Of a DNA stretch of 64,000 nt, positions 3,474 to 5,851 are shown one piece after another. The notes under the pieces are model-generated. The model saw only the letters and a list, made by a program, of their open reading frames with translations. It did not search any database and had not been told where the DNA came from. The stretch is from Candidatus Gastranaerophilales bacterium (GTDB taxonomy: Bacteria > Cyanobacteriota > Vampirovibrionia > Gastranaerophilales > Gastranaerophilaceae): contig CALUYE010000003.1 of the NCBI GenBank assembly GCA_944324945.1, forward strand, positions 124,001-188,000, written 5' to 3'. Within the stretch, counting starts at the first letter, position 1; each line of letters opens with the position of its first letter. The position numbers and the translations under genes were made by a program.

Positions 3474-4541
3474 TTACGCTGCAAACTTTGCCATTGTCTC
3501 CGTTGCTGCAGATTTAACAGCTTCATCTTGAGAATTTAGCGAATCTTTTAATACTGTTTCAATCGAAGCTTTATCCTGAGGTTCTGCTACATATTGAAGA
3601 GCTTGAATTGCTGCAACTTTTACTTCCGGTCTCGGATCGTTATTTATAACATTTACGATATCGTTATAGCCGATTAATTGGTCAATCGGAAGCGGTTCAA
3701 TCGGTTGTTCGCCGTTTGCTTTTTGCGTTTCTATGTATTGATTTAATTCATCTCTTTGTAATTTTTGAATCATTGCTAGGGTATATAGTGCAAAGATTCT
3801 GTTTTTATTTGCTTTGTCTCTCGGAGATAATTGTTCTGACAGTGCATTTTCTTCAGGAGTTAGCTGTTCACCTTTTGCAATTTTTTCCGCTATTGCAATT
3901 TGTTGATCGGTTGGGCCTTCAAGAGCACTTGTGTCTTCGTTAATTATATTTACAAGAGATTTCATGATTGGTTCGGATACGACTTGAAGCGCTGTTTCGG
4001 GAGTTGATTGAACATATTCCGCTATTTGATTAATTGTTTTTGCTTTTGTGTCGTTATCCGTGCTTTGTAAGCCTTTTGTTAATTCATCAATGTTAATTAC
4101 CTGAGCATTGTTATTGTTTTGAACTTCAGCTACTTCGGGTTGTTGTACTTCTTGCGCTGCAGTTTGTACTTGTTGAGCAGGCGCATTTTGTTGAGCTTGA
4201 TTTGTTTCAGATGCTTGAGCGTTTGAATCGATTACACTGTTTGGCATCATTTGAGGTGCGGGTGCAATCGGTTGTTGAGCAGGAGTTTGCTCAGGTATTA
4301 CCGCTTGTTGAATCGGTTGGTATATCGGATATTGAGCAGGTATTGCCGCTTGAGGTTGATATAGCGATGCTTGAGGCATTGCATAAATCGGATTTTGATA
4401 AGAATAAGGTGCACTTACATTATTATTGGCTCCTTGAGGAACTCCTCCGTATGCTTGAGGATTAAATATGTTAATGCTTACGGCATTCGCACCACTTCCC
4501 TGTGCAGGGTATAATTGTTGAGCATTTGTGGGCTGAATCAT
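3474..4541 (-). CDS. Unknown protein: conserved N-terminal motif, Pro/Gln-rich linker, HEAT-like C-terminus
   Basis: Function unknown, 355 residues. Residues 19-32 (core NAVSINIFNPQAYG) are nearly identical to residues 23-36 of the protein at 5126-5851. A disordered stretch rich in Pro, Gln, Tyr and Ala follows (about 33-150). The rest is helical with HEAT/armadillo-like units, for example NNDPRPEVKVAAIQALQYV. No signal peptide or membrane segment is seen. The start is fixed by an AGGAG site in the proper place. The domain plan suggests a scaffold: a short binding or sorting tag, a flexible spacer and a protein-binding superhelix. The role is inference. Confidence 0.75.
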   Translation of the reverse strand: MIQPTNAQQLYPAQGSGANAVSINIFNPQAYGGVPQGANNNVSAPYSYQNPIYAMPQASLYQPQAAIPAQYPIYQPIQQAVIPEQTPAQQPIAPAPQMMPNSVIDSNAQASETNQAQQNAPAQQVQTAAQEVQQPEVAEVQNNNNAQVINIDELTKGLQSTDNDTKAKTINQIAEYVQSTPETALQVVSEPIMKSLVNIINEDTSALEGPTDQQIAIAEKIAKGEQLTPEENALSEQLSPRDKANKNRIFALYTLAMIQKLQRDELNQYIETQKANGEQPIEPLPIDQLIGYNDIVNVINNDPRPEVKVAAIQALQYVAEPQDKASIETVLKDSLNSQDEAVKSAATETMAKFAA

Positions 4542-4686
4542 TTATTTCTCCTTTTTGTTTATTTCCACAATCTTTATAAGACATGTGAATGTTAATAATT
4601 GCTAGTAATCGTAATATTTTTTGTTATTTTCTTTAAAAGGCTTGTAAATACTGGTTTTTGACTGTTACATATTGTTACAATTCCTA

Positions 4687-5121
4687 TTAAAGCTTTAAGT
4701 GGTCATTCTTTTGAAATATTCCAAGAGAATTAACAACAAAATCATAACCTTCAACAAGCGCAAGTCCTATTGTGCTTATTTTGGATATAAGAGGACTTTT
4801 TGTCGAAAGGGCTGCTATACCAAGGACAAAATTAGGAAAATATCTGGGCGCTGTTTTAATAACACCTTTAAAATAACCTTTTATTTTCCCGAAAACTTCA
4901 CTCGGAGAAGCTAAAAGATTTCTCTCGCTTAACCAGTTTTTCCTTGCTGCATCTTTATATGAAAATGTATCTGATCTTTGAGAATTTATTGAATTTGAAA
5001 CCACAAGGTTTGCTTGAGTTTTTGCTAATTCCTGATTAGAATAAACTACCGCTGTTTTATGAATATCATAAAGAGCCGAACCTAAACTTAGCGTACCTGC
5101 CGTTTTTGATAAAAAACTCAT
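4687..5121 (-). CDS. Small unknown protein with hydrophobic C-terminal half
   Basis: 144 residues, no family recognised. The N-terminal half is polar and helical. Residues about 85-130 contain two moderately hydrophobic stretches (around FPNFVLGIAAL and ISTIGLALVEGYDFVV) that may associate with a membrane. The gene starts four bases after the stop of the upstream HEAT-like gene, with an AGGAGG site inside that gene's end. The two are therefore very probably cotranscribed and functionally linked. Confidence 0.7.
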   Translation of the reverse strand: MSFLSKTAGTLSLGSALYDIHKTAVVYSNQELAKTQANLVVSNSINSQRSDTFSYKDAARKNWLSERNLLASPSEVFGKIKGYFKGVIKTAPRYFPNFVLGIAALSTKSPLISKISTIGLALVEGYDFVVNSLGIFQKNDHLKL

Positions 5122-5125
5122 TTCC

Positions 5126-5851
5126 TTAACCTCCTACCGCTACTTCCTGCGGAGCTGCCATTTTTAACAGTATTTCGGATGCTAATAGTTGGTCTTCTCC
5201 TGTTTTGTCTTTATTTTGTGTTTGAATTTCTTTTAAAATTTGAACCGTTTCATCGTTACCAACACTATAACCTAATTGAAGCGTTGTTAAACCTAAAAAT
5301 CTTACCGCTGCTGAGGTATCTCTTAAAGTTTTATTTAAAAGAGGTATTAAGCTCGGATTATCTTTTCGATTTTCATCTTCTTTAAATCTTTGCATCAATT
5401 CCTTTGCACCGATTAATCTTACTTTCGGATTTGAATCATTTAAATAATTTTCCAAAGATTTAATATATTCGTCATTAAGCGGTACTACTACTTTTTCTTC
5501 TTCTTTATTTTGCGTTTTGTTTTCCTGCGTATTATTTTGCGCATTTAATTCAGGTTGAGGCGTTTTTTGAACCCCGTTATTATCCCCCACCGCATTCATA
5601 CCATTCAATTGAGGATTTTGTTTTTGTTGATAGAACATGTTGTTATAATTTTGCGGATATATGGGCATGCCTTGTTGAATATTAGGGCCGTATAAAGGAT
5701 AGAAACCTTGATTATTTATGGGGTTTGTGGGACATTGCGTATTTCCGTACGCTTGAGGAGAATATATATTAATACTGACCGCATTAGGATTTGAACACGG
5801 TGTATAAGCGCTCATCGGATATTGATTCGTATATAAAGAATTTCCTTGCAT
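5126..5851 (-). CDS. Unknown protein: conserved N-terminal motif, Pro/Asn/Gln-rich linker, HEAT-like C-terminus
   Basis: A shorter relative (241 residues) of the protein at 3474-4541. The 14-residue N-terminal motif (positions 23-36, core NAVSINIYSPQAYG) is shared. A low-complexity Tyr/Pro/Asn/Gln region (about 37-120) follows, then HEAT-like helices such as LNDSNPKVRLIGAKELM. No signal peptide or membrane segment is seen. The start is supported by AGGAG. It heads a two-gene unit with the 144-residue protein. The shared motif between otherwise divergent proteins suggests that the motif, not the linker, is under selection. Confidence 0.75.
   Translation of the reverse strand: MQGNSLYTNQYPMSAYTPCSNPNAVSINIYSPQAYGNTQCPTNPINNQGFYPLYGPNIQQGMPIYPQNYNNMFYQQKQNPQLNGMNAVGDNNGVQKTPQPELNAQNNTQENKTQNKEEEKVVVPLNDEYIKSLENYLNDSNPKVRLIGAKELMQRFKEDENRKDNPSLIPLLNKTLRDTSAAVRFLGLTTLQLGYSVGNDETVQILKEIQTQNKDKTGEDQLLASEILLKMAAPQEVAVGG

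Follow-up and report, generated by a model that had tools for sequence, protein, structure and literature searches.

A core gene module of a Gastranaerophilales family encodes two predicted HEAT-repeat proteins with a common, conserved N-terminal motif

Why do two proteins whose linkers are dissimilar in sequence carry the same short peptide near their N-termini? This question is raised by a locus from Candidatus Gastranaerophilales, non-photosynthetic gut relatives of the cyanobacteria that are barely cultured and known mainly from metagenomes. In the stretch of DNA that was analysed (64,000 nucleotides, hereafter the window), a first-pass annotation had described two minus-strand genes with a common N-terminal motif and a 144-residue partner coupled to one of them. 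Both statements were borne out: the two genes, termed A and C, encode NAVSINIYSPQAYG and NAVSINIFNPQAYG, respectively, and the partner, B, is coupled to A, which lies directly upstream of B in 51 of 52 loci, most of them with gaps of -17 to +15 nt. The features are the following.

5126..5851, minus strand: A, 241-residue open reading frame with motif, disordered linker and predicted C-terminal HEAT repeats (ORF list, Pfam, alignment)
5744..5785, minus strand: motif of A, residues 23-36, NAVSINIYSPQAYG (ORF translation, motif profile, dN/dS)
5153..5482, minus strand: predicted HEAT repeats of A, about residues 124-233 (Pfam and alignment)
4687..5121, minus strand: B, 144-residue helical partner (ORF list, gene order, AF2)
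3474..4541, minus strand: C, 355-residue open reading frame with motif, disordered linker and C-terminal HEAT/ARM solenoid (ORF list, Pfam, AF2, structural comparison)
4446..4487, minus strand: motif of C, residues 19-32, NAVSINIFNPQAYG (ORF translation, motif profile, dN/dS)
3477..4097, minus strand: HEAT/ARM-type solenoid of C, about residues 149-355 (AF2 and structural comparison)

In the window, the start codon of B is located 4 nt past the stop codon of A, with a GGAGG sequence upstream of B, and 145 nt separate B from C. The trio is flanked by gatB, which is divergent from A, and by a gene for an SLT transglycosylase-domain protein, which is convergent with C. A scan of genome contigs yielded 20 relatives (15 Candidatus Gastranaerophilales, one Cyanobacteria and four uncultured bacteria), and the full A-B-C cluster, both scaffold genes carrying the motif, was present in 18 of them (L023-L040), while one was cut in A and one consisted of A and B only. 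Run against 289 genomes of the class, a B profile had matches in 184, all within the window's own family, and in no genome of the other families of this sample; only four genomes of the family were listed without B. C was present in 40 of 41 sampled family genomes. A, B and C are a core module of the family. The solenoid is a known fold. The families of A, B and C are unnamed in the libraries searched, and none of the papers searched mentions Gastranaerophilales or Melainabacteria in connection with HEAT repeats, in agreement with the earlier view of an unrecognised, lineage-specific family. The near-universal presence also speaks against a mobile or prophage origin of the module. The three-gene cluster, in turn, exists in the window but is not general: in most genera outside that of the window, C is found at another locus than A-B, and the cluster is kept in the window's genus (g1) and in a small number of further genera (26 loci, with 98-166 nt between B and C).

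In the window, the motif common to A and C reads NAVSINI[FY][NS]PQAYG. The 14-residue motif of the first-pass annotation is therefore real in both proteins, but this length represents the version of one genus; its common denominator over 37 sampled genera is [AGS]-V-x-I-x-[IV]-x-x-P. Typical copies are GVNIQIFNPS in A and AVKIDVHNPS in C, and genus g1 mostly has AVSINI in both. Among 50 full-length A proteins the motif was intact in 46, eroded in three and absent in one, and it was present in all 50 C proteins whose N-terminus was contained in the data. A 16-position motif profile gave E 5e-10 and 1e-9 on the two window copies, which had themselves helped to build it, and motif profiles also recovered the pair in dozens of genomes that had not contributed. 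In a sample of the phylum, the motif-only profile (E<=0.1) had exactly two matches in 58 of 62 family genomes; the matching reading frames correspond in size to A and C, and in every case inspected they were A and C. Of the remaining four genomes, one had a single match and three had three or four, the surplus matches being either weak or located in a short extra frame adjoining C. Among the 84 other genomes of this sample two had a match (better E 0.0045), which is no excess over chance. Sharing of the motif by A and C is beyond chance, and within the family it is confined to two proteins per genome rather than spread over unrelated low-complexity proteins, a concern that the annotation had raised. 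At the DNA level, a degenerate pattern of the motif core has three exact sites in the window's own genome. Two of them correspond to A and C; the other was rejected as a motif copy, as its free position is occupied by a stop codon, and sites with one mismatch showed no clear excess over a reversed control.

Some side observations concern such N-terminal peptides. In genera g34 and g41 (L103, L109, L112) the motif of A is changed to Y-[AS]-G-[VM]-x-I-x-C-N; such natural variants can show which residues are important. In a few genomes, short extra frames with a second C-type motif occur just 5' of C (L141 1152-1343, with C at 1450-2574; G181:C6:100340-100381), and these are probably partial duplications. 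Several proteins of the lineage that differ in other respects start with short peptides of the type M-x-I...N-x-x-F-x-G (L028 193-2259, L032 573-2045, L104 4794-5964), possibly another lineage-specific N-terminal tag.

The motif is followed in both proteins by a long low-complexity linker, as the annotation had stated: glutamine, asparagine, proline and tyrosine account for 52% of the first 122 residues of A and 49% of the first 148 of C, and the two linkers are unlike each other. Within the window's genus they also vary in length (43% gaps). We determined dN/dS for this genus by the Nei-Gojobori method on pooled pairs, with synonymous sites near saturation and hence a rough absolute dS, and obtained 0.07 (A) and 0.04 (C) for the motif, 0.44 and 0.53 for the linker and 0.11 and 0.24 for the HEAT part. 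The core V, I, I and P of the motif are invariant within the genus in A and C alike. The motif is under strong purifying selection inside a disordered, drifting tail, and the earlier impression of a conserved motif beside a drifted linker was correct. Past the motif, second conserved islands were observed in both linkers (alignments A1 and A3), namely a block of the type Y-P-x-x-Y-x-N in the A linker and Y-x-x-P-Q-A-x-x-Y and M-P-x-S-V blocks in the C linker; these are likely further docking sites.

The C-terminal parts of both proteins had been described as HEAT-like. Pfam HEAT_2 matched C with E 9e-7, above the cut-off, and A with E 1.3e-5, just below it; among the 20 relatives, it was detected in all C and in 19 A proteins. 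The C-terminal part of A is accordingly assigned to HEAT repeats as a prediction from sequence. For C, an AF2 model of the single chain, built from 20 sequences, displays a helical-repeat solenoid for residues 145-355, mostly with pLDDT >90, so that the tail of C came out as a HEAT/ARM solenoid, and the refuting case named in the annotation, C-terminal parts without predicted HEAT repeats, did not arise. Its best structural matches are designed armadillo proteins, alphaRep proteins, importins and beta-catenin, with Z of about 13-15, which for repeat proteins shows the kind of fold and not kinship. Residues 1-144 of C, motif included, are disordered in the model (pLDDT <50 almost throughout) and contain no strand; the motif is unfolded and does not pack on the protein's own solenoid.

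HEAT tails on both proteins, together with an A-B-C order in genus g1 and family f4 that fits an ancestral tandem, might indicate that A and C are old duplicates and that the motif is a remnant devoid of present function. We regard this as highly improbable: a motif under strong purifying selection next to a fast-drifting linker already speaks against it. Moreover, a comparison of the A-family and C-family profiles aligns the motif region only, and the shared motif is therefore not a by-product of recent duplication.

We propose instead that the motif is a docking peptide on a tether by which two scaffolds, C and the B-associated A, reach one common receptor or site, a reading that we consider quite possible, if short of probable. 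Each scaffold would consist of a C-terminal HEAT/ARM solenoid, a long disordered tether and the N-terminal docking peptide, which, judging from its alternating hydrophobic residues, may extend the edge of a receptor sheet by one beta strand. With the same peptide, A and C would share a receptor or site and could both be recruited there, while the tether would let each solenoid reach its own clients. No receptor candidate for the motif was found in this analysis. Further observations count against this proposal. A few genera keep just an eroded motif in A, and in most genera outside that of the window the motif exists in two subtypes (GVNIQIFNP in A versus AVKIDVHNP in C), which may therefore not bind the same surface. 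Since most genera have C away from the A-B locus, the case for cooperation between A and C consists of the shared motif and their co-occurrence.

The main rival explanation is homotypic assembly, in which the motif acts as a steric zipper or strand swap that joins A to C, or each protein to itself, and gives rise to a co-polymer or condensate in prion-like tails rich in Q, N, P and Y, similar to two-partner amyloid signalling motifs. The occurrence of the motif on exactly two proteins per genome, the V-x-I-x-I alternation, the low-complexity context and the near-identity of the A and C motifs within g1 are all in line with such an assembly. However, the C motif reads VKIDVH in many genera, and a parallel zipper in register is disfavoured where it would stack like charges. 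Furthermore, the similarity between A and C motifs of the same genome is not significantly above that of shuffled pairs (p 0.07 outside g1, p 0.15 within g1), and Pfam reveals HEAT-type families alone, with no NLR or Bell-type domain. Taken together, we consider homotypic assembly unlikely.

The motif also occurs in other families of the class. With the motif profile alone, proteins resembling A, C or both were recovered from families f2, f3 and f4. In f4, where C was confirmed by profile comparison and A has no Pfam match, the A-B-C order is kept, the position of B being taken by a gene whose homology to B is unproven; the B-position genes of f3 and f4 showed no significant similarity to B in profile comparison (Prob about 4%) and are alike in position only. 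Via the motif profile, relatives of C with HEAT repeats were found in f6, and f12 has a motif-bearing, Pro-rich open end. A weak match in f9 (G072) was discarded, as the open reading frame there does not have the N-terminal motif. In two genomes of f11 the motif is present in two adjacent Pro-rich proteins of about 700 and 105-110 residues; the pair has no recognisable HEAT repeats, and the longer protein has no Pfam match. The motif is thus separable from HEAT repeats, and the pairing of the two that the annotation had described holds in the window's family but not in f11. In these f11 genomes, a protein with a RuBisCO large-chain catalytic domain is encoded divergently from both motif genes (L169 3824-5128, L206 3981-5189; PF00016 in L206, E 9e-26).

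Gene neighbourhoods differ between genera. In many genera other than that of the window, the trmD/rimM region adjoins A-B, and transketolase and ftsEX adjoin C; we rejected an assignment of function from neighbours, as these are not constant (gatB and the SLT transglycosylase gene in g1, others elsewhere). The C gene is divergent from a transketolase-like gene, followed by ftsE and ftsX, in many genera (L210 4205-6758, L211 3136-5699, L212 3142-5667), and ftsEX is absent next to C in g1. The proximity of ftsE and ftsX possibly points to a setting in cell division or the envelope. In this regard, the motif might be an addressing or sorting signal for a transport or envelope machine rather than the ligand of a permanent scaffold receptor. 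Its place near the N-terminus independent of the folded domain, its presence on the f11 proteins and the ftsE-ftsX neighbourhood would suit such a role, which we nevertheless judge decidedly unlikely: A and C of the window have no hydrophobic N-terminal stretch resembling a signal peptide, the motif is located anywhere between about 14 and 66 residues from the N-terminus, and the ftsEX neighbour is missing in g1.

Sequence searches with B gave no match in Pfam, NCBIfam, PHROGs or PDB, and its relatives have just scattered single Pfam matches at chance level. The AF2 model of B is all-helical with a mean pLDDT of 75 and had no significant Foldseek match in PDB or among viral models; the best VIA-align Z of 5.7 is uninformative for a helical model. 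All 52 copies of B are basic, with net charges between +1 and +17, and B contains two or three moderately hydrophobic stretches, with a mean best Kyte-Doolittle value of 1.55. The peaks remain below the level of a clear transmembrane helix, and the hydropathy is compatible with a predicted peripheral or shallow membrane helix. Within the docking proposal, gene coupling as well as hydropathy and charge of B suggest that the HEAT domain of A may hold B, perhaps at the membrane surface. Alternatively, the motif could belong to a fold that the module's proteins form among themselves, involving B or the other HEAT solenoid, and without an outside receptor. The co-occurrence of A, B and C would be in accordance with this, and the AF2 models of B and C, being single chains, leave room for it. 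Conversely, motif-bearing C is unlinked to B in most genera, and genomes of f6, f11 and f12 have motif proteins with no B detected in the class sample, and we therefore think such a fold quite unlikely.

Returning to the docking peptide, a broader idea is that of an ancient, class-wide recruitment code, in which the strand motif, recognised either by a single receptor or by its own copies, would organise a lineage-specific structure of HEAT scaffolds (joined by B in the family of the window), indispensable to these gut bacteria with their small genomes and without equivalent in photosynthetic Cyanobacteria. We put this forward as a speculation that is rather unlikely to be true. The module is near-universal in its family; no recognisable form of it was found outside the lineage, and it has no name in the libraries searched. 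It is hence a strong candidate for a lineage-defining cell structure, for which the A/C motif provides a concrete handle towards the receptor.

With regard to known systems, the C-terminal solenoids of A and C resemble those of HEAT/ARM proteins (HEAT_2 PF13646, HEAT PF02985; importin, beta-catenin, designed armadillo) according to Pfam and, for C, also AF2. They differ from these in the long, low-complexity N-terminal tether with its conserved strand-like motif and in having no close family; sequence matches in PDB are mainly engineered repeat proteins. NblB is a HEAT-type protein of cyanobacteria involved in phycobilisome degradation. Its model (NF045915) gave a weak, HEAT-level match to C (E 0.005), and identity with NblB was rejected, as C reached 16.4 bits against a cut-off of 300 and no match was listed for A; in addition, the window's lineage is non-photosynthetic, and A and C have motif-bearing disordered tails. 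In bacterial amyloid signalling motifs (BASS, some of them RHIM-like), a short strand-like motif is common to two proteins per genome (PMC8086366). A and C share this feature. In a BASS pair, the motif is common to an NLR-type receptor and a Bell-type effector; in A and C, Pfam showed HEAT-type families alone, and many C copies have charged residues within the strand. Linear docking by beta strands is a further point of reference, exemplified by the calcineurin PxIxIT motif and the IxI/V motif of small heat-shock proteins. Like these, the A/C motif is a short alternating V/I-x-I-x-I peptide with a proline nearby on a disordered tail, a resemblance of pattern and not homology. As for a strand-docking peptide, it resides in a disordered region and is conserved against a drifting background. 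The A/C motif illustrates clearly, for bacteria, how a linear motif on disordered tails can be deeply conserved.
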